Positions 16,483-44,601 of a stretch of 44,601 bases of DNA are shown here, piece after piece. The translations under genes were made by a program, and so were the position numbers. How positions within the stretch are numbered: position 1 is the first letter of the stretch; each line of letters begins with the position of its first letter. This DNA comes from Phycisphaerae bacterium (GTDB taxonomy: Bacteria; Planctomycetota; Phycisphaerae; UBA1845; PWPN01): the NCBI GenBank assembly GCA_012729395.1, contig JAAYDF010000217.1, positions 1-44,601 of the forward strand, given 5' to 3'. The notes beneath the pieces are model-generated. The model worked only from the letters and a program-made list of their open reading frames with translations. It was not told the DNA's origin and made no database searches.

Positions 16483-19400
16483 TCAGCCGGCGCACGCCGG
16501 ATCGCCCGGTACATCCGCACCTGAGAAGCAATTGATGAGCCGCCCGAGATCCACCGCATCCACGTCCTCGTCGGTGTCGAAATCCGCATCGGCACACTCA
16601 GGCGAAGGCGGCGCTATTCCCGACCCGCTCAGACAGCTCTGCAAGAAGGCGAAGTCATCCAAGTCCACGTCCCGATCGCTGTCGAAATCACCGGGGACCG
16701 GCGGCGGCGTGTAGACGTCCAGCAAAGCCGCCTCCGAAGCGACGCTCCCGCAATCCGCGGTCACCACGCATCGGTAGCTACCCTCATCTGCCGGGGCAAA
16801 GTTGGTAATCTGCAGAGTCGGAGTCGTCGCCCCAGAGATCGAGCCGCCGTTGTTGAGATCGACCTCATTCTTCTGCCAACGGTAAGTCACCGTGCCCGCT
16901 CCGGAACCGGCGACGGTCAGGACCGCGGTAGCCCCAAGTTCGATGCCCTGCGACTGCGGATGCTCGGTGATGACCGTGGCGGCCTGCACGCTGAGGGCCG
17001 CGGCACTCGAAACGTCCGTTCCTCCCAGGCTGGATACGATGCAACGGTAATGCCCGGCATCCTCGTCGGCCACATCCACGATCTGGAGCGTGTGGTTGTC
17101 GGAACCGAAGATTCGGTCATCATCGCTGAGGTCACTGCCGTCCTTCTGCCACTGGTAACTGAGGATACCGTCACCTGTCGCGGTCACCGCGAAGCTCGCC
17201 TGCGCACCGGCGCACGCCAACAGTGCCGTAGGCTGGCCGGCAACTTGCGGTGGCGTGCTCGGCGGCGGAGTCATCTGCTCAAAGACATCCAGGTCAACGC
17301 TGAAGGGCCCGGCTGAGTCAACTACCGCGAGTCCGATGTGCTCGATCGTACCCTTGTTGTTGGCGGCAGCGAGGACGCCGTCACCAGTGAAACCCAAGAC
17401 CGAATCAGCGAGCGGATCGAACGACAGCGTTTGCCATTGACCGCCCTGGTCGCTGATCACGACACCCTGTGGGGCGCCGGAAGTGCTCGATGCGGCCCCA
17501 AGCCATTCGATCGTGCCCGACGTCCCGCCGTTCTCGCCGATGGGCACATCGGTCCCCGTCTCGCGAATGCCCAGGCAAACCCGCAGCGAGCCGGTACTGT
17601 TGAGCCGAATGCGGAAGCGAATCGGGCGGGTGAGGTCCACGGCCGGATTGGGCAGGTTGCCCGTACCGCTGGTCGTGAGACGCAGCCACCTGCTCGGATC
17701 GGTGTCCAGAAAAGCCCAATCGACCTGGTAGATCTTGCTCCCGCCAAACGCCGAGCCGCTGACAACCCGCGACGTGTTGGGTGACGTCTGGAGATGCTCA
17801 TCCGTCGAGCCTGAGTACGTCGGCTGGCGGAACATGACTTGGACACCGTCGGAGTAGCCCTCGAAGTCGGTGATGAGTGTGCCCCGAACGACCAGGGAGG
17901 CGGCGGCGGATGTGTCGCTGCCATAAGGGCTGGTCACGACGCAACGGTAGTTGCCTTCTTCGGCCACGGTCGCACTGGCGATGCTGAGCGTGGGCGAGGT
18001 CGCGCCGGAAACGCTGCCGCCGTCGGCGAGATTGGTGCCGTCTTTCTGCCAACGATAGAAGAGAGGCTCGTCCCCGGCGGCCTGAACCGTGAAGGTGGCG
18101 GTGGCACCTTCGCTCACAGTGGCACTCGCGGGCTGACCGGTCACAACCGGAGGCTGCGGCCCGCCGACTTCAACCACAACCTGCTTGGTGAGCGTAGGCC
18201 CAAACCACGTGACTCCCTCGCGGATCATACGCCAATCGGTGGTGTAGGTGCCGGGTGTTTCGGGCGCGGTCATCGTGAAGGTGAAGGTGTAGGTCTGCCC
18301 CGGCCGGACGGTGGTGCCTTCGATCGTCTGGCGCGTGGCGGCGAAGGGATCACTGTCGTCCACGGCACCGAGCTTGTAGTTGCGGGCGCTGGTCCAGAGC
18401 ACACCGCGATTGCGGAAGGTGATGCCGACCACGTAGCTCTGCCCGGCCAGCATGGTGGCCGGGATCGTGTCACTGACGAACTCGCCCGAGTACTTGTCCC
18501 AGGTGGGCGTCCGGCCGAAGTAATCGCAGATACCTTTGTACTCGCCCCACGTGGTCAGGGAGCGGAACCAATCGTCGATCAGGTAAAGAGCGTCCTTGTC
18601 ACAGCGATCGTGAAACGCCAGCTCGACCAGGCATGCCGGGCGATTGGGAATGCGGATCTCGCCAAATCCTCCGTTTGAATTGCCGATGCCTCGGTCCCGC
18701 CATGTGCTGTCGTACATCTCTCGGACGACATTGACGATGCCGGCCTGCACTTTGGTCGCCAGCGTCAGGCTGTTGGCAACGTGAGCCTGATAGGCCATGG
18801 CCGAATCACGGTAAGTAATCGTCCCTGTGCCCTCGGCGGCGTTGCTATGATGCGAGAGGTAAATATGCGAACCGCGGTAGTCGGCAAACAATGGGCGGGA
18901 ACGAATATCGTCACTCGATCGACTCACCGACCCGGTATCGGTCGAGCAGAGCCCCGAAGAGTTGGCGTAGACCGAGCAGGGCAGCCCGGCGTTACGAAGC
19001 CAGATGTAGGCGGCCGTCTTCCACCAGGCATAGCCTGTGCTGTGACAACATGTGCTCTCATCGAGCGCGCGGCACACGTGGACTGTCGCCCCATCCTGAA
19101 CAAGGTACTGGTACAGATACTGCATCAGCCGGATCGAGTTGGTGTCCTCGAGCACCGCTTCGCCGAACCCGCAGGGGTCGCTGCGTTGCCAGTACCAGCC
19201 CGAGCCGTTCCAAAACCGGCCGTGAGACGGACCGATGGTGATGTTCAAACCGCTCAGACCGGCCTGCTCGGCGCCAACTCCCCCTTCAATCAACGTCGGG
19301 GCCGCGGGCGCGGGAGCCACGTCAAAATCCACCTTGACCGGCGAGAGATAATCCGACAGCAACTGCCCGCCGCAGGTGAGCCGCATATCGCTCACTTCCG

Positions 19401-19728
19401 AACCCAACGCAAACGCGCCGCTGAACTCGCCAAATAGGTGAGCAAGCGTAGCCTCATCCAGCACGCTGAGGATATCCGCCGGGAAATCAATCGTCGCGGC
19501 AGATCCGTTAACGGATACACGCGGCAAACCCGCCTCAGCAGGCAGATGCAGGGTGACCGGCCAACCTTCCGGGATAGCGAAATCGCCTTCGATCGCCAAA
19601 TCGGCCGTTGATATCGCCGCCTTCCCGCCCGACTCGGCCCGGGCATCCGCCGAAGCGAACATCGCAAGAAGACACCCGCACAGCAGAATTGCCACGCTCG
19701 GCAAGCAGCTTCGTTTCACCGTTCCCAT
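16483..19728 (-). CDS. Secreted N-acetylmuramoyl-L-alanine amidase with NBR1-like, Ig-like and dockerin domains
   Basis: A 1081-residue exported protein. After the signal peptide (1-31) and a beta region (about 40-140) comes an Amidase_3-like domain (about 160-400) that would cleave the peptidoglycan amide bond: H169 in PSHG, E190 or E194, H293/H294 in LSHHSNA as zinc ligands, and E369 in LVELAFHD as catalytic acid. Then follow an NBR1-like Ig domain (about 418-522), an Ig-like domain (525-615), a 200-residue module of unknown function (618-817), two Ig-like domains (825-1004) and a dockerin type I (1012-1070, DFDSDRDVDLDDF and DFDTDEDVDAVDL). The ATG at 19728 has GGGAGG upstream. It lies 26 nt behind the phosphatase gene, probably the same operon. 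Confidence 0.87.
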   Translation of the reverse strand: MGTVKRSCLPSVAILLCGCLLAMFASADARAESGGKAAISTADLAIEGDFAIPEGWPVTLHLPAEAGLPRVSVNGSAATIDFPADILSVLDEATLAHLFGEFSGAFALGSEVSDMRLTCGGQLLSDYLSPVKVDFDVAPAPAAPTLIEGGVGAEQAGLSGLNITIGPSHGRFWNGSGWYWQRSDPCGFGEAVLEDTNSIRLMQYLYQYLVQDGATVHVCRALDESTCCHSTGYAWWKTAAYIWLRNAGLPCSVYANSSGLCSTDTGSVSRSSDDIRSRPLFADYRGSHIYLSHHSNAAEGTGTITYRDSAMAYQAHVANSLTLATKVQAGIVNVVREMYDSTWRDRGIGNSNGGFGEIRIPNRPACLVELAFHDRCDKDALYLIDDWFRSLTTWGEYKGICDYFGRTPTWDKYSGEFVSDTIPATMLAGQSYVVGITFRNRGVLWTSARNYKLGAVDDSDPFAATRQTIEGTTVRPGQTYTFTFTMTAPETPGTYTTDWRMIREGVTWFGPTLTKQVVVEVGGPQPPVVTGQPASATVSEGATATFTVQAAGDEPLFYRWQKDGTNLADGGSVSGATSPTLSIASATVAEEGNYRCVVTSPYGSDTSAAASLVVRGTLITDFEGYSDGVQVMFRQPTYSGSTDEHLQTSPNTSRVVSGSAFGGSKIYQVDWAFLDTDPSRWLRLTTSGTGNLPNPAVDLTRPIRFRIRLNSTGSLRVCLGIRETGTDVPIGENGGTSGTIEWLGAASSTSGAPQGVVISDQGGQWQTLSFDPLADSVLGFTGDGVLAAANNKGTIEHIGLAVVDSAGPFSVDLDVFEQMTPPPSTPPQVAGQPTALLACAGAQASFAVTATGDGILSYQWQKDGSDLSDDDRIFGSDNHTLQIVDVADEDAGHYRCIVSSLGGTDVSSAAALSVQAATVITEHPQSQGIELGATAVLTVAGSGAGTVTYRWQKNEVDLNNGGSISGATTPTLQITNFAPADEGSYRCVVTADCGSVASEAALLDVYTPPPVPGDFDSDRDVDLDDFAFLQSCLSGSGIAPPSPECADADFDTDEDVDAVDLGRLINCFSGADVPGDPACAG

Positions 19729-19754
19729 TCCCTTGACCTCCCTTCGCCAGGTGC

Positions 19755-22700
19755 CTATTGCAGGCAATCCGGCTCACCGATAATGCTCGCACCCGAAAAG
19801 CAGTTGACGAACAGGCCCAGATCGACCTTGTCTACGTCCTGGTCATGATCCAAATTCGCCTCATCACAACCCGCGTCGGTTGGAGCCTGCCCGGAACCGT
19901 TGAGACACGCCTGTAAAAAAGCGAAGTCATCCATGTCGACATCGCGGTCATCATCGAAATCGCCGGGGATCGGCGGCGGCCCCGGCAACGAAAGCACCGC
20001 CTCCTCGGAGAGCGTCGTACCGCAATCCGCGGTGACGGCACAGCGATAGCTGCCGTCATGACCGATGCCGAAGCTGCTGATCTGCAATGTGGCCGTTTGC
20101 GCACCACTGATCACACCGCCGTCCACCAAATCGCCCCCATCCTTGCGCCACTGGTAACTGAGGCTGCCCGCACCAACCGCCGTCACGCTCAGCACGGCGG
20201 TCGCGGCATAGGCGATCGTCTGCGACGCCGGCTGCTGGGTGATCTCCGTCGCAGGCTTGACTGTAAGCACTCCCTGATTCGAGTAGGTGCTGCCGCCCGC
20301 GTTGGTCACCACGCAGCGGTAGTGGCCCGCGTCGGCGGCGTCGGCGCTCGAAACAAGCAGATTCGCCGTGGCCACGCCGGAGTAGTGTCCACCCTCCGTC
20401 AGATCGCTGCCGTTCCGCTGCCACCGGTACGACAGATCCCCTTCACCCGTGGCCGTCACGCTGAAATCTGCCGACATTCCCGGACAGATGAGGCTGTCGC
20501 CGGGGTTCGCGGTGATGATCGGCGGAACGATGGGGTCGGGCTCAGGTTGCTCGAAAAAATCGAACTGCACGCTCCATGGCCCAGCCTGATCGACGAAAGC
20601 CAACCCTACATGCTCCAGCACGCCCTTGTTGTTCGACGCACTGAGCACACCATCGCCGGTGAAAGCCCGCACGCTATCCGTACGCGGGTCGAACACAAGC
20701 GTGTGCCATTTTCCCCCCTCTTCGGAAACCAGTGTACCCTGGGGAGCGCCGCTCACGACGGAATCCGCGCCGACCCATTCGATGGTCCCGGTTTTCCCGC
20801 CATCCTGCCCGATCGGCACATCGACGCCCGTCTCCCGGATGCCCAAGCAGACCCGCAGCGAGCCGGGCGTCAGAAGGCGGCACCGAAAACGGATCGGGCG
20901 AGTCAGGTCCACCGCCGGGTTGGGCACGTTACCCGTCGCACTGGTTGAAAGACGAAGCCACCGCTGTGGGTCGGCATCCAGAAAAGCCCAATCGACCTGG
21001 TAGACCTTGCTCCCACCGAAAGCCGAGGCGGTCACGACTTGTGAGCTGTTGGGCGTGCTCTGAAGGTGGCCGTTGGTCGAGCCGGAGAAGCTCGGGTGGC
21101 GGAACAAAACCTGGACGCCGTCGGCATAACCTTCAAAGTCGGTGATCATCGCCGTCGCCGGCGTCGTCGGAACGGACACGACCACATCGTCCACCAAGGT
21201 CTTGGCTCCCGCGTTGCTGGCCCGGTAGTTGTAGATGAACGGCCTTCCCTTGGGCAGCGTGGCATCCTCGATCGGCGTCTCGGTCTTGAGCACGCCATCG
21301 ATCCATACGGACAACTCGCTGCCGGAGACGGACAGTTTCAGCTTGTGCCAGCCGCTCACATCGGGGAACTCCCACGTCGCCAAAACGGTTTCGGTATCCG
21401 GCTCGAGCCGCAGTAGAACGCAGTGTCCGTTGGCTGCCACAGTGTCGTTACGCACGAAGGTCAAGAGATAACCGCTGCGTCTGGTGGAGCTGAAGAACTG
21501 CCGCCCGCGCACGCCGATTCCGTAGCGGTTCTTCACCGACGCCGTCGCGTCGTAGTACACTTGGGCCTCGAGGGCACAGGCGGTCAACGATTCATTGGCC
21601 AGCATGGGGTAAGCGTACTGGTGCCCGCTGGAGTCGGCGACCTGGAAAACATGTCCATCGCCGCTGGGGTTGCCCGCCTGGGCCTTCAGGCCGCACTGCG
21701 TCGTGAAGTTCCACGGCGCAATCCAGTTCAACTGCGGACCCGCCGCGGGGAAGGAATCATGCCAGGGCATGGTGATCGGCGGCTTGTCGAGCTGGAAGCC
21801 ATCCAGGATGTCCCCTCCCGTCGTCCGCCGGCAGTAGCCAAGAAGCCGTGTTCCCTGGATATCCAGCCGAGTGAAGCAGTACTCGTTGTTCGCGTACGTC
21901 TGGACATAGGATTGGCTGTCGTCGGAGTTCTGTCCGAGGCTCTGCCCGCCGGTGCCCTGGAGCATGTAGGTCACACCGTTGACCATGTTGCGTTGGTATT
22001 CGTGGTAATGGCCGCAAAGGTACAAGTCGACGTCGTGCTGCTCGAACAACGGCACCAGATGCGTTCGCACGACACTGCTGCCTGACGCCGCCCCTCCCTG
22101 GCTGATGTAGGGGGCATTGTGGCCATACACGATCTTCCATGTCTTGTTTGTCGCGGCCAGATCATTCGCCAGCCACGTGTGCTGAGCGGATCCGGTGGTA
22201 TAGGGCTCCCAGAACGTGACCAAACTGGCAAAGTGAACGTGGGCTTTGTCGAACGAGTAGTAAACCTCGGTGCCCGAGTTCTCTGTCGGCAACGACCAGT
22301 TGGCCAAGTACTTAACGGGTGGCACGTAGTCCGGGAACGAGCTCTCGTCGTACAGCTCGTGGTTGCCCAGGCAAGGGTACATGGCAACGTGCTTGAGGAA
22401 CTCGCGGACGGGGTCGAAGAAGTGGGATTTCCAGTAATCGGTGATGTTGTCTTCGCCCCGGCCGGCCAAGTCGCCGACGGTGATACAGAAGCCGTTCTTG
22501 ATCTCGGGCAACATGGCGTTGTAGGTCCGCGTAGCGTTGCCCGGCGCGCTGCATGAGTCTCCCACAAAGCTAAACGAAACGGCCGTCGCGGTATCCAGTG
22601 GAGCGGTCTTGAAGGTCGCATCCTCGGTGAGCGCCGTACCCCCGCAACGGACGCGATAATGGTAGAGCGTATCGGGTGTCAGACCGGTGATGGCGATCTC

Positions 22701-22934
22701 ATGCCGCGTGGCCGACTCGGTCGCCTGCTTGACCTGCCCGTAACTGGTAGTCGCCCCCCACTCCACCTCGCCCACGCAGGCGGTGTCCGTCAGCCAGACA
22801 ACAGTCATCGAGGTCGGGCTCTGTAACTGCAGATACGGACCTCGCGTGACCGTGGCCGCCGACGCCCCCCCCGCATAGACTCCCGCCAGCAATAAGCTTG
22901 TGATCCACGCCACAGAGAGCATTGGGGTTCGCAT
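19755..22934 (-). CDS. Secreted purple-acid-phosphatase-like protein with Ig-like and dockerin domains
   Basis: A 1059-residue exported protein. Signal peptide 1-26; N-terminal fibronectin-like PAP domain (about 28-112); metallophosphoesterase (about 118-370) with the metal-binding series GDS (125-127), GDLAGRG (from 154), GNHE (190-193), GH (271-272) and GHYHEY (from 308). A laminin-G/concanavalin-like domain follows (about 385-590). The last 464 residues repeat the layout of the neighbouring amidase: 200-residue module (596-795), two Ig-like domains, dockerin (989-1048). It should hydrolyse phosphate esters outside the cytoplasm. ATG 22934 has GGAGGAG about 6 nt upstream. Confidence 0.88.
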   Translation of the reverse strand: MRTPMLSVAWITSLLLAGVYAGGASAATVTRGPYLQLQSPTSMTVVWLTDTACVGEVEWGATTSYGQVKQATESATRHEIAITGLTPDTLYHYRVRCGGTALTEDATFKTAPLDTATAVSFSFVGDSCSAPGNATRTYNAMLPEIKNGFCITVGDLAGRGEDNITDYWKSHFFDPVREFLKHVAMYPCLGNHELYDESSFPDYVPPVKYLANWSLPTENSGTEVYYSFDKAHVHFASLVTFWEPYTTGSAQHTWLANDLAATNKTWKIVYGHNAPYISQGGAASGSSVVRTHLVPLFEQHDVDLYLCGHYHEYQRNMVNGVTYMLQGTGGQSLGQNSDDSQSYVQTYANNEYCFTRLDIQGTRLLGYCRRTTGGDILDGFQLDKPPITMPWHDSFPAAGPQLNWIAPWNFTTQCGLKAQAGNPSGDGHVFQVADSSGHQYAYPMLANESLTACALEAQVYYDATASVKNRYGIGVRGRQFFSSTRRSGYLLTFVRNDTVAANGHCVLLRLEPDTETVLATWEFPDVSGWHKLKLSVSGSELSVWIDGVLKTETPIEDATLPKGRPFIYNYRASNAGAKTLVDDVVVSVPTTPATAMITDFEGYADGVQVLFRHPSFSGSTNGHLQSTPNSSQVVTASAFGGSKVYQVDWAFLDADPQRWLRLSTSATGNVPNPAVDLTRPIRFRCRLLTPGSLRVCLGIRETGVDVPIGQDGGKTGTIEWVGADSVVSGAPQGTLVSEEGGKWHTLVFDPRTDSVRAFTGDGVLSASNNKGVLEHVGLAFVDQAGPWSVQFDFFEQPEPDPIVPPIITANPGDSLICPGMSADFSVTATGEGDLSYRWQRNGSDLTEGGHYSGVATANLLVSSADAADAGHYRCVVTNAGGSTYSNQGVLTVKPATEITQQPASQTIAYAATAVLSVTAVGAGSLSYQWRKDGGDLVDGGVISGAQTATLQISSFGIGHDGSYRCAVTADCGTTLSEEAVLSLPGPPPIPGDFDDDRDVDMDDFAFLQACLNGSGQAPTDAGCDEANLDHDQDVDKVDLGLFVNCFSGASIIGEPDCLQ

Positions 22935-24994: not shown

Positions 24995-26128
24995 TCAGCC
25001 TGGAGACTCAGCCACCTTGGCCGTGGCTCGTTGCCGCACGGATTGCAGCCAGTCACTGAGAACCTTCTCAGCGGGTTTTCCACGAGGGGTGTAGTTGTAG
25101 TCTTCCGGACCGCCGCGGTCGTCATTCCACTCCCACCAGATCATACCGCCGACCTCGGGCGTATCCGCCCAGGTCTTCAGAAAGGCGAGATAGCAGTTGC
25201 GTTGCTCTTCGAGACCGGCCGGCGTGGCCTTCTGCTTGTGGAAGTAGTTCCATGGCTGGCTCGCCGCTCCCTCCTGGCTGCACCAGCCGATCTCGGTGAA
25301 AAGCAGCGGCTTGCCGACCCGCTGCTGCCAGCGTAACACGCCGCGTTTGATGGGCTGCCACGCTTCCAGCAGGGCATCAAGTGAAGGATTCGGCTCAGAG
25401 GCCAGTTTGTAGTAACTGGTCATGCCCACCAGGTCGAGCTCATCCCAGAACTCGACCACCTTGTAGTGATCCCAATTCGAGGAGTAGGAGAGCTTACCGT
25501 GGTAAACCTTGCGAACATCACGGATGAGATTCCGCCAACGGTCGGTGTATTTCTCGGTGCTGATGAGTTCGGAACCGACGGTCATCACCTCGACGCGGTT
25601 GGCCTCGGCAATGCGGGCAAAGCGGAGGACGAACTCGCGATAGCGGTCGAACCAGTCATCCCAGTTGGGTGGGTTGATGACCCCCCGCCACTCACTGCCG
25701 CGGGGATGACTGAGAAGCACGATGGGCATGAGGATGACCCGCAGGCCGTGGTGGTGGGCGAGCCGGATAATCTCTCGCCACTGCTCGTCACTGGGTGTCA
25801 CCGCGGGGTCAATCTCGAACGTGTCCGAGCCGGCATGCTCCTGGTAGCCGGGGTTGCTGATAAGGACAGCGTTGGCGCCCAACTCGGCCATCTCGCCGAA
25901 CAGCCGCCGAGCACGTTCCACAACCCCGTCCACATGGTGGATCTGCCACGCGAGGCCACAGTATGGCGCGTGCGCGGGCGCGAGCGGCCTCGCGGCAGGC
26001 AGCGGTTGTGATTGGTCAAACGTGGCTTTGACGGCCGGGACCACACCATGGCCATCCCCTGAGCACGCCCACCAGACGGCGGCGGCGACGGTCGCGAGGG
26101 GCAGCAGCAGCTTACCGGTGAAACTCAT
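24995..26128 (-). CDS. GH113-like glycoside hydrolase
   Basis: A 377-residue exported TIM-barrel protein. The N-terminus is hydrophobic with WACSGDG, possibly a lipoprotein signal. The barrel shows GEMAELGANAVLISN, LRVILMPIVLLSHPRG, the probable acid/base glutamate in VMTVGSELIS, SYSSNWDHY, and the probable nucleophile in LLFTEIGWCSQ, with IWWEWNDDRGG near the end. This set resembles GH113 beta-mannanases and related GTA-type barrels; the true substrate is open. It is convergent with the murI operon and 136 nt from the ThuA gene on the same strand. Confidence 0.78.
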   Translation of the reverse strand: MSFTGKLLLPLATVAAAVWWACSGDGHGVVPAVKATFDQSQPLPAARPLAPAHAPYCGLAWQIHHVDGVVERARRLFGEMAELGANAVLISNPGYQEHAGSDTFEIDPAVTPSDEQWREIIRLAHHHGLRVILMPIVLLSHPRGSEWRGVINPPNWDDWFDRYREFVLRFARIAEANRVEVMTVGSELISTEKYTDRWRNLIRDVRKVYHGKLSYSSNWDHYKVVEFWDELDLVGMTSYYKLASEPNPSLDALLEAWQPIKRGVLRWQQRVGKPLLFTEIGWCSQEGAASQPWNYFHKQKATPAGLEEQRNCYLAFLKTWADTPEVGGMIWWEWNDDRGGPEDYNYTPRGKPAEKVLSDWLQSVRQRATAKVAESPG

Positions 26129-26264: not shown

Positions 26265-27053
26265 TTACTTCGCCTCCGCCAAACCGAGAGCCCAGGCCAC
26301 CCCGGCCAGCACATGATCCTGATAAAGCGGGTTGGTCCACACGTCCTCGCGATGCCCTAGCGAAGTGTAGAACACGCGGCCCTTGCCCTCCTCACGCGTC
26401 CAGGCCACAGGGTAGTACTCATCAGCCTTCATCCTCTGCGGCTCAAGGTTTGTCTTGCCCGTGTCAATGCTGATGAGCATCCTGACGTTGTCGCGAGAGA
26501 AACCCTTGAACTGGTAAATCTCGTCCGCCAGCACCCACTCCGCAGGCAGCATGCGGGTGGACGGGTGGTCCCGGTTCTCGACCTTGACCGTCACTTCCTT
26601 GTCACCGGCGCCGTGTGTCAGGAACGCGGCGCCGATCATCCGGACAAAGGCCTCATCGTCGGTGAAGCTATCCGTAGCCGCGTGGATTCCGACCAGCGTC
26701 CTGCCCGATCGCAGCCATTTGAGCAAGGCCTCGCGGTTGATCTTCGGGTTGCCCGAGGTGTACAGGATGATTCCATCGAACTGGTCGAACTGCTTCTCAT
26801 CCTTCAGGTCATGGAAACACTGGGAGAAATAGACCTCGTAGCCGGCCTTCGTCAGGATGTCCTTCAGGATCTTCTCCGCAAAGGACAGCTCCCCGGTCAG
26901 CGGTCGGGCCACGACCGAATGTCGGAAACCATCGGACTCACTGTAGACAAGCAGTTTCTTCCTGGCTCCGCCCTGCTCGGCCGCCAGGCAGTAGAGCACG
27001 CCGGTCACCAACATCGCCGTTCCGATTGCCGCCAACACTCGCATATTCCGCAT
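26265..27053 (-). CDS. ThuA-domain exported protein
   Basis: A 262-residue protein with an N-terminal signal or anchor (about 1-24). A class I glutamine-amidotransferase-like ThuA domain follows: KKLLVYSESDGFRHSV, FDGIILYTSGNPKINREALLKWLRSGRTLVGIHAATDSF (in parts), TMLPAEWVLADEIYQF-like stretch, and the closing VFYTSLGHREDVW. ThuA-like proteins are linked to trehalose and other sugar metabolism, and are abundant in planctomycetes; the reaction is not established. ATG 27053 is preferred because GAGG lies 9 nt upstream; ATG 27062 is the alternative. Confidence 0.85.
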   Translation of the reverse strand: MRNMRVLAAIGTAMLVTGVLYCLAAEQGGARKKLLVYSESDGFRHSVVARPLTGELSFAEKILKDILTKAGYEVYFSQCFHDLKDEKQFDQFDGIILYTSGNPKINREALLKWLRSGRTLVGIHAATDSFTDDEAFVRMIGAAFLTHGAGDKEVTVKVENRDHPSTRMLPAEWVLADEIYQFKGFSRDNVRMLISIDTGKTNLEPQRMKADEYYPVAWTREEGKGRVFYTSLGHREDVWTNPLYQDHVLAGVAWALGLAEAK

Positions 27054-27679
27054 CGCGGTCATCCTCGTCTCAGGCGTGAAACGTCACACATGCCCTGCCC
27101 GCCGCCAGGCAAGGGGCACCTATCGGCAGACAGCCTACCACCCTGCATCCAGCGGTTCAATCAGCCGGCCGCCCCCGGGTTCCTGTCGTGAGGCCGCATG
27201 GCAAGCTGATCGTCCCCACGTCGCGCGTCCGCTCATCAACGCCATCGCCGCGACTTGTTCAGCCGGACTACCTGTGTTCCGGTTCTCCTGAACACGCAAC
27301 CATGCCGAGTGCGACGCTCGACTTGCATGATTTGCCGTCCGGTGCCGTTTTCTCTATGATCTCCGCGTAATGAGGCACGATCCCCCCTGCCGCGGGAGGA
27401 AGACGAGGCACTTGCATCAAAGATCAAGGGACAGGATACTCCCGGGACATCGTGATGTCGCGTACTTGAAACTGCCAGGTTTGGGCCGGGCATACGCAAA
27501 CCGGTACCGAGTGAGCTAACAGTCCGGCAGAGACGCGGAGCGATACAAGGCAGCCAGCCCAAGTCATCCGGTTTTCGGAGGACGCGGGCGGCACACCAGC
27601 ACCTTTGAATGAGCGCTCCCCCACCTGCCTCGGCATACCGATCGTTCCTGATTCGAGTCCGGTAGAGGATACGCACCTG
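27054..27679. other. 626-nt divergent spacer and nqr leader
   Basis: No coding frame with support. It contains a candidate promoter (27332-27360) and then about 310 nt of possible nqrA leader. Within the leader are a GACATC-GT-GATGTC palindrome (27456-27469) and a GGTTTG/CAAACC stem (27478-27483 with 27497-27502). I recognise no known riboswitch class. Confidence 0.45.
27332..27360 (+). promoter_or_regulatory. Candidate promoter of the nqr operon
   Basis: TTGCCG (27332-27337), a 17-nt spacer and TATGAT (27355-27360): four and five of six matches to the sigma-70 consensus, inside an otherwise GC-rich region. It would start RNA near 27367 and leave a leader of about 310 nt before nqrA. Confidence 0.45.
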
Positions 27680-42765: not shown

Positions 42766-43694
42766 CGACTCCCGCGAGGGTCAAACGCGTCCCGCAACCC
42801 ATCGCCCACGAAGTTCAGAGCCAGCAGCGTCATCCCCAGAAACAAACACGGGTGGAGCAGCATCCACCAGAAGCTCTCCACCGTATTGATCGCGGCCACG
42901 CCCTCGGCGGCCAGCGAGCCCCAAGTGGGAACCGGCGGAGCCACGCCGATGCCCAGGAAACTTAGAAACGACTCCTGCAGGATCGCCTGCGGTACCGTGA
43001 GCGTCGCATAGACCACGATCGGCCCGATCAGGTTGGGCAACAGGTGCCTACTGAGAATCCGGACCGGCCCGATGCCGGCGGCCCGAGCGGCCTCGATGAA
43101 CGCCATCTCCCGCAACGACAGCACCTGCCCGCGGATCACCCGGGCCATGGTCAGCCAGCTGACCGACCCGATGGCGACGAACAGAATCACTACGTTGGCC
43201 ACTTGCTTGTCGCCGATCAACCTCGTCAGCGGCTGCTCGAAGGCGACCTTCAGCAGGATCACAAGCAGAATATAGGGTAGGCCATAGAGGATGTCTACCA
43301 GCCGCATCATCGCCCCGTCGACGCGTCCGCCGGCCAGCGCGGCAATCGCTCCCCACATCACGCCGACCGTCACGCTCAGCAGTGCGGCCCCAAGCCCGAC
43401 GCTCAGACTGATCGTCCCACCGAACAGGCAACGAACCAAAAGGTCGCGTCCCAGGCCGTCGTGGCCGGCCGGGTTGCTCCACGCCGGCGGTCGTCGGTTC
43501 AACTCCAACCGCTGGGCATCGTAGCGCGACGCGGTCAGCGGCAGGGCCGCCAGCATCGACAGGACCAACAGCCCCAGAAACAGCCCGCTGACAACCGCGA
43601 CGCGGTTGCTCAAGAACCGCCGCCAGGCTCGCGACGCGGGCGACTGCCCGTCGTTGGCGAGATCGGCGGCAGGTATGGCGATCGCTTCACTCAT
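42762..43694 (-). CDS. Peptide ABC importer permease, OppC/DppC-like (second pair)
   Basis: A 310-residue membrane permease with the OppC/DppC layout: SRAWRRFLSNRVAVVSGLFLGLLVL (parts), NPAGHDGLGRDLLVRCLFGGTISLSVGLG (parts), the EAA loop AFIEAARAAGIGPVRILSRHLLPN (parts) and GIGVAPPVPTWGSLAAEG. It is not a near copy of the other OppC in the operon. ATG 43694 is chosen over the TTG at 43700; it overlaps the upstream gene by 8 nt. Confidence 0.92.
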   Translation of the reverse strand: MSEAIAIPAADLANDGQSPASRAWRRFLSNRVAVVSGLFLGLLVLSMLAALPLTASRYDAQRLELNRRPPAWSNPAGHDGLGRDLLVRCLFGGTISLSVGLGAALLSVTVGVMWGAIAALAGGRVDGAMMRLVDILYGLPYILLVILLKVAFEQPLTRLIGDKQVANVVILFVAIGSVSWLTMARVIRGQVLSLREMAFIEAARAAGIGPVRILSRHLLPNLIGPIVVYATLTVPQAILQESFLSFLGIGVAPPVPTWGSLAAEGVAAINTVESFWWMLLHPCLFLGMTLLALNFVGDGLRDAFDPRGSR

Positions 43695-44601
43695 AACCAA
43701 CCCTCACCCGCGGATCCACAAAGTTGTAGCACAGGTCCACCACCAGATTCATGCCGATCAACAGCGCGGAGTACGTCAGCACGGTACCCATGATCAGCCC
43801 ACGGTCGAGGTTGAGCACGCTGTTGACGAAGTGCTGGCCAAGGCCGGGAACAGTGAACAGCTTCTCAACCACGAACGAGCCGGTCATCGCCGCCGCCAAG
43901 GCAGGCCCCACGAAGCTGAGCACCGGCAGGAAGGCGTTGCGCAAAGCGTGCTTCCAGATCACGCCGCGACGACTGACCCCCTTGGCGTAGGCAGTGCGAA
44001 TGAAATCGCTGTTCAGCACGTCCAGCATGCCCATCCGCGTGAGCCGGGCTATGTAGGCCATGAAGGGTAGCGACAGCGTGAGCGCGGGCAGCGGGATCTG
44101 CGACAGTTCGCCCCACCCGCCCACGGGCAGCCATTGCAGCTTGAGAGCGAATACCAGCAACAAGGCTGTGCCGGTCACGAACGTCGGCAGCGACACACCG
44201 ATCAGCACCAGACCCAGCGAGCCCACGTCGAACCATGAGTTCCGCTTGACCGCGCTGATGACCCCGATTGGCACGCCGACCAGCACCGCCAGCATCACCG
44301 CCAGCAAGCCGAGGGCGAACGACGTCGGCAGGGCTTGGGCGATGATCTGCGTACAGGTCCAGTCGCGATACTGAAAACTCGGCCCGAAGTCCAGCCGCAC
44401 CGCGCCGGCCAGGTACTGCCAGTAGTAGGTCCAGTTGTTGTCGATGCCGTACCGGGCCTCGAGCGCCCGCTGCACGGGCTCGGGCATCTGGCGGTCGGCC
44501 TGCTGAAAGGGATTCCCCGGCACGGTCACCACCATCAGAAAGGTGATCGTGTAGATAGCCCACAGCGTGGGCACCGCCAACAGCAGCCGCCGAACGAGGT
44601 A
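43687..44601 (-). CDS. Peptide ABC importer permease, OppB/DppB-like (second pair), 5' end missing
   Basis: The frame continues to the window edge. The first readable residues, YLVRRLLLAVPTLWAIYTITFLM in effect, match the OppB N-terminus, so only about the first few residues are missing. Family features: YGIDNNWTYYWQYLAGAVRLDFGPSF (parts), the EAA loop SDFIRTAYAKGVSRRGVIWKHALRN (parts), VPGLGQHFVNSVLN and the closing NFVDPRVRVGYE. It is the first visible gene of the minus-strand importer operon and pairs with the OppC-like gene just downstream. Confidence 0.93.
   Translation of the reverse strand, partial: YLVRRLLLAVPTLWAIYTITFLMVVTVPGNPFQQADRQMPEPVQRALEARYGIDNNWTYYWQYLAGAVRLDFGPSFQYRDWTCTQIIAQALPTSFALGLLAVMLAVLVGVPIGVISAVKRNSWFDVGSLGLVLIGVSLPTFVTGTALLLVFALKLQWLPVGGWGELSQIPLPALTLSLPFMAYIARLTRMGMLDVLNSDFIRTAYAKGVSRRGVIWKHALRNAFLPVLSFVGPALAAAMTGSFVVEKLFTVPGLGQHFVNSVLNLDRGLIMGTVLTYSALLIGMNLVVDLCYNFVDPRVRVGYE

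Follow-up and report, generated by a model that had tools for sequence, protein, structure and literature searches.

A 44,601-nt stretch of DNA (the window) from a Phycisphaerae bacterium, which is the whole of contig C189 of a 5.74 Mb metagenome-assembled genome (99.6% complete, 3.4% contamination), encodes two co-oriented genes whose products end in the same order of domains: a 204-residue module opening with the motif ITDFEGY, two immunoglobulin-like (Ig) domains, and a dockerin. These products are probably secreted enzymes, a peptidoglycan-type amidase (gene 1) and a purple-acid-type metallophosphatase (gene 2), in which the module, a non-catalytic beta-sandwich of the carbohydrate-binding module (CBM) type, would tether the enzyme to glycan, the Ig domains would act as spacers, and the dockerin, a Ca2+-loop tag, would attach the enzyme to an extracytoplasmic receptor or scaffold of the cohesin type. 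On this view, the tail would have been built long ago by domain shuffling, and purifying selection would have maintained the likeness of each domain.

From ITDFEGY to the stop, each tail comprises exactly 464 codons plus the stop codon, the equal length that a sequence-only reading of this DNA had pointed out. Both segments (16483-17877 and 19755-21149) are encoded on the minus strand; a plus-strand reading of them was ruled out, the plus frame being broken by stops. The two tails are identical at 281 of 462 positions (61%; 76% positive; BLASTP) without gaps, and the score of 556 bits places this likeness far beyond chance. The corresponding DNA alignment is also gapless over its 1395 columns and ~64% identical (a 'mean column identity' of 82% in a two-row alignment corresponds to 64% identity). 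Identity is 72% between the two module copies (A in gene 1, B in gene 2), which bears out an estimate by eye of 'well over half', and 52% across the Ig-Ig-dockerin part. The N-terminal parts are unrelated, as had been noted: Pfam assigns Amidase_3, N_BRCA1_IG, and I-set Ig domains to gene 1 vs. a purple-acid-phosphatase N domain and Metallophos to gene 2. In its Ig-Ig-dockerin part, gene 2 is 51% identical, with 2 gap columns, to an unrelated enzyme of the same genome (C58), and a third full tail, on contig C251, has 456 residues. Thus, the equal length without gaps is not as remarkable as it appears and mostly reflects conserved domain lengths, and the 464 residues do not form a fixed cassette.

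The tail is an old, widely reused modular unit, probably assembled by domain shuffling. The C251 tail belongs to a C39-like peptidase (Peptidase_C39_2) that matches gene 1 residues 539-1092 at 62% (the upstream Ig and the whole tail) and has a different catalytic part. An amidase paralog (C40) is 62% identical to gene 1 over residues 54-629 (amidase and first Ig) and runs to a single dockerin without the module-Ig-Ig block, and in C168 an amidase is joined straight to a dockerin. Another five of the genome's modules are followed immediately by a dockerin, with no Igs between, and all eight module copies precede a dockerin. When the module profile was run on a draw from the whole phylum, it matched the window's own genome only, because that sample contained few close relatives; in a search of relatives, 34 of 101 matched. 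Relatives of the module occur in the Phycisphaerae, Armatimonadota, and Verrucomicrobiota. The module's partner domains are GHL10 (seven proteins), GH18, Amidase_2, Amidase_3, Peptidase_C39_2, a glycosyl hydrolase core, phosphatases, and Golvesin_C. In Verrucomicrobiota proteins the module occurs several times per protein, together with cadherin/He_PIG domains and no dockerin; in Armatimonadota it is followed by a dockerin of another type; in one protein (L069) the module forms the protein end, and in another (L092) it is followed by PEP-CTERM. Because the module occurs with a dockerin, with PEP-CTERM, or with neither, it is not itself a sorting element. The earlier proposal of a swappable surface-targeting tail therefore holds for the swapping, as seen in the third full copy, the five module-dockerin joins, and the amidase paralogs that lack the block, and finds no support for surface targeting by the module, given its CBM-like fold and its dockerin-free occurrence in other lineages.

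The domain that closes the tail is a true dockerin and belongs to a class with four cysteines (class 2). The gene 1 dockerin scores 23.9 bits against Pfam Dockerin_1 on the tail alone and 21.2 bits on the whole protein (cut-off 22.9), and the gene 2 dockerin, 62% identical to it, scores 11.4-13.8 bits, under the cut-off; against class profile A5, which contains both sequences, they reach E-values of 7e-30 and 8e-29, respectively. The class profile matches the solved dockerins 2vn5, 5nrk, and 2mte. An AlphaFold2 model (predicted local distance difference test, pLDDT, 97.3) has helices at residues 13-22 and 48-57, and its best 17 Foldseek matches in the PDB are all dockerin-containing (best TMt 0.77, 2y3n_B), with weak E-values (0.03 at best). 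Dockerins are thus the top matches by both sequence profile and fold. Type I dockerins (PF00404; e.g., that of Clostridium cellulolyticum endoglucanase A, 2vn5) share with the window's dockerins the two D-x-D-x-D loop plus helix repeats; in the class alignment (A7), the residues of the tandem Ca-loops (DxDxDxxxxxxD), D4, D8, D12, D43, D47, and D50, are invariant or nearly so. Unlike type I dockerins, the class has four conserved cysteines (A7 positions 22, 35, 57, and 69; the first two invariant, the others nearly so), one after each helix and one before the next element, forming a C-x-SG...C element after each helix; many members fall under the Pfam cut-off. The four cysteines may form two disulfides.

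Dockerins are abundant in this lineage. The window's genome has 84 Dockerin_1 matches in two classes and carries dozens of copies of the four-cysteine class, which is present in all 13 same-family genomes, 11 of which have 52 to at least 59 copies (up to 419 candidates). The dockerin stands at the very C-terminus of secreted proteins. Class 1 dockerins in two loci (L032 and L034) are internal, with ~290-314 residues beyond them, and one dockerin-bearing frame (L011, contig C78) contains a single in-frame TGA, which may reflect either a pseudogene or a sequencing error. The two tails lack a PEP-CTERM motif and a C-terminal transmembrane segment, ending in ...GDPACAG and ...GEPDCLQ. In this they differ from proteins sorted by the PEP-CTERM/exosortase system, although exosortases are present in the window's genome and the module carries PEP-CTERM in place of a dockerin in L092. 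A full-text literature search for dockerins together with PEP-CTERM found nothing.

A cohesin-type protein is the most likely partner of the four-cysteine dockerin. A Pfam scan of the window's genome found no cohesin (PF00963); the reading that the genome has none, based on Pfam alone, is countered by a profile built from 14 cohesins of relatives, which recovered four divergent cohesin-like domains (E 1e-11 to 2e-8; profile-profile probability 98.7%), all within 12 kb of contig C201. Contamination as the source of this contig is disfavoured by its G + C content (0.62 vs. 0.63 for the window), although the 3.4% contamination of the genome leaves some room for it. The host proteins are secreted (one trypsin-like, one beta-helix, and two others) and possibly form an adaptor cluster. 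In three same-family genomes (G393, G402, and G403), a cohesin-like domain occurs in the same protein as a four-cysteine dockerin. Several observations weigh against a cohesin partner: each of the C201 proteins ends in a class 1 dockerin, not a class 2 dockerin; each has a single cohesin-like domain, no multi-cohesin scaffoldin being seen; and 8 of the 13 same-family genomes have no cohesin detectable by Pfam or by the relatives' profile. The system also departs from a cellulosome, in which dockerins would sit on plant-polysaccharide hydrolases and a scaffoldin would hold several cohesins: the module-bearing set consists of amidases, a peptidase, phosphatases, GHL10, and GH18.

The foremost alternative, close to the undescribed docking partner envisaged by the sequence-only reading, is that the four-cysteine dockerin serves as a sorting tag, recognised by a non-cohesin receptor of an undescribed, dedicated surface-anchoring system in this Phycisphaerae lineage; we consider this unlikely, though worth weighing. 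The position of the tag at the extreme C-terminus would suit it, as would the presence of dockerins in every family genome and of cohesin-like domains in 5 of 13 (Pfam or relatives' profile). However, the divergent cohesin-like domains of the window's genome escaped Pfam and came to light with a better profile, so absence elsewhere may be insensitivity; several of the family genomes are incomplete; and the relatives in which this dockerin class sits within cohesin-carrying proteins also speak against it. The earlier expectation of a partner other than a cohesin is countered in part by the four divergent domains and favoured by the eight family genomes that show none. In one same-family genome (G394), a 185-residue protein (L149:598-1155) consists of a signal peptide, a single cohesin-like domain, and a PEP-CTERM anchor, and is possibly a minimal surface receptor; as a receptor for the window's proteins it was ruled out, no homologue being found in the window's genome.

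A cohesin-type partner would have a counterpart in the 'planctosome', a hypothetical cohesin/dockerin complex proposed for the Nemodlikiaceae, freshwater Planctomycetes (PMC6461901). Both are inferred, non-cellulosomal cohesin/dockerin sets of Planctomycetes with dockerins on non-cellulase enzymes; the window's genome differs in its dozens of dockerins in two classes, its CBM-like module, and its Ig spacers, and no anchoring LTD protein was identified in it. What non-cellulosomal planctomycete dockerins bind is a long-standing question. Recovery of cohesin-like domains here with a better profile indicates that an apparent lack of cohesins beside dockerins can be a matter of detection, and the disparity between dockerins (13 of 13 family genomes) and cohesins (5 of 13) makes the binding partner directly testable.

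The ITDFEGY module, which the first reading could not name, has no Pfam match beyond noise among 39 members, and a PDB sequence search at E 10 yielded none either. An AlphaFold2 model built on 39 relatives (pLDDT 96.3; predicted template-modelling score 0.91) is an all-beta jelly-roll beta-sandwich. Its top Foldseek matches in the PDB are mostly CBMs (8qx6, 1wzx, 2c24, and 2y6k) or sugar-binding proteins, including CBM X584 (laminarin), CBM30, CBM4-2, and a putative sugar-binding protein of Bacteroides thetaiotaomicron, with CBM11 slightly lower (E 7e-5 to ~1e-3; template-modelling (TM) scores 0.45-0.59). The module shares with CBM families (X584, CBM30, CBM4, CBM11, and CBM22) the jelly-roll beta-sandwich, a length of ~170-200 residues, and attachment to secreted enzymes; it differs in having no sequence match to a Pfam family or solved chain, in its moderate TM scores, and in the occurrence of permuted forms. 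The module represents a CBM-like domain family, ready to be named, that the searched Pfam copy lacks and that spans three phyla on cell-wall and glycan enzymes. From its modelled fold and its partner domains, which are mostly those of glycan or cell-wall enzymes, the module may hold the enzyme to a glycan, perhaps the bacterial cell wall or an extracellular polysaccharide. The moderate TM scores weigh against this role, as they make the module only a distant relative of known CBMs. Also considered was a ligand-free role as a structural or protein-protein spacer, retained beside the dockerin for the sake of stability; the jelly-roll occurs in non-sugar roles too (the Foldseek matches include FlaA1 sheath and gingipain adhesin domains), and the invariable position before a dockerin in the window's genome would agree with it. 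Such a role is improbable, however, in view of the strong conservation of W64, R66, R105-E106-T107, and E124, which are among the residues invariant across the 39 sequences, the association with glycan-active enzymes, and the forms free of a dockerin (Verrucomicrobiota) or joined to PEP-CTERM (L092).

Naturally circularly permuted forms of this putative glycan-binding module appear to exist. A 301-residue frame (L092:1991-2893) reads as a stand-alone protein with a signal peptide, the second module half, the first half, and PEP-CTERM, and the second half also precedes the first in L086, L091, L117, and L120-L127. The breakpoint lies in the module model's loop joining strands 86-92 and 97-105. 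In a wider and quite tentative proposition, to which we attach low confidence, the four-cysteine dockerin would mark a large system by which a single Phycisphaerae lineage docks or sorts its secreted proteins, tagging as many as hundreds of them in a genome. Its receptor would be either a very divergent class of cohesin or a non-cohesin, and the tagged enzymes would already carry a new glycan-binding family able to undergo circular permutation.

The further suggestion that the neighbouring tails were recently duplicated or homogenised by gene conversion would fit their identical architecture, equal length, and adjacency, as well as a weak clade of the gene 1, gene 2, and C251 modules (support 83/84) that leaves out a gene 2 orthologue, but is very improbable, because synonymous sites are near saturation (proportion of synonymous differences, pS, 0.67; dS ~1.7) and no homogenised DNA tract was found (longest exact run common to both genes in the module region, 28 nt; identical codons not clustered, permutation p 0.63), in the Ig-Ig-dockerin part gene 2 and C58 are as similar as gene 2 and gene 1, and the sole hint of a local tract involves gene 1 and C251. 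The orthologue excluded from the clade (L061, same family) matches gene 2 at 60% over 1027 residues and has the same tail; its position hints weakly that copies of the module moved between genes once those lineages had separated. Between the gene 1 and C251 (L003) tails, silent divergence is locally reduced: in the stretch of codons 74-110, 25 of 30 same-residue codons are identical (p 0.009 in one of six tests), which may mark a short conversion tract involving paralogs that are not neighbours.

Table 1. Positions of the domains of the two genes in the window and of the cohesin-like domains elsewhere in the same genome.
Feature	Position	Strand	Basis or remark
Gene 1, secreted amidase-type protein	16483..19728	minus	start chosen by reading the sequence
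Gene 1 Amidase_3 (N-acetylmuramoyl-L-alanine amidase)	18556..19161	minus	Pfam PF01520, E 2e-7, 31.7 bits (cut-off 27)
Gene 1 N_BRCA1_IG-like Ig domain	18172..18366	minus	Pfam PF16158, E 1.7e-9
Gene 1 I-set Ig upstream of module, also in C251 paralog	17902..18150	minus	Pfam PF07679
Gene 1 ITDFEGY module, copy A, CBM-like jelly-roll beta-sandwich	17266..17877	minus	AlphaFold2, Foldseek
Gene 1 tail Ig domain 1	17002..17250	minus	Pfam I-set, tail residues 210-292
Gene 1 tail Ig domain 2	16723..16974	minus	Pfam Ig_3, from tail residue 302; lower boundary by eye
Gene 1 four-cysteine (class 2) dockerin	16489..16698	minus	Pfam Dockerin_1, profile A5, AlphaFold2, Foldseek
Gene 2, secreted metallophosphatase-type protein	19755..22934	minus	ATG 22934 or 22922; start by reading the sequence
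Gene 2 purple acid phosphatase N-terminal (fn3-like) domain	22605..22838	minus	Pfam PF16656, E 2.7e-10
Gene 2 calcineurin-like phosphoesterase (Metallophos)	21996..22538	minus	Pfam PF00149, E 2.5e-14
Gene 2 ITDFEGY module, copy B	20538..21149	minus	identity to copy A
Gene 2 tail Ig domain 1	20286..20516	minus	Pfam I-set, tail residues 212-288
Gene 2 tail Ig domain 2	19995..20246	minus	boundaries by homology, gapless alignment with gene 1
Gene 2 four-cysteine (class 2) dockerin	19758..19970	minus	profile A5; under Pfam cut-off
Cohesin-like domains in L160 (G000:C201:32000-51999)	C201:37337-37684, 43607-43957, 47249-47566, 48985-49305		

The open reading frame of gene 1 is listed from a TTG at 19767; position 19728 holds the first ATG ahead of a stretch resembling a signal peptide. 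The gene 2 stop lies 26 bp upstream of this likely start on the same strand; by this spacing and orientation, the two genes are probably co-transcribed, likely as one operon. Between the phosphatase and the module of gene 2, ~200 residues (21168-21770, minus strand) have no Pfam match; by eye, this region has the look of a concanavalin/LamG-type fold and is similar to part of L026. A GH113-type glycoside hydrolase (24998-26128) and a ThuA domain protein (26268-27062) are encoded near the gene pair on the same strand.

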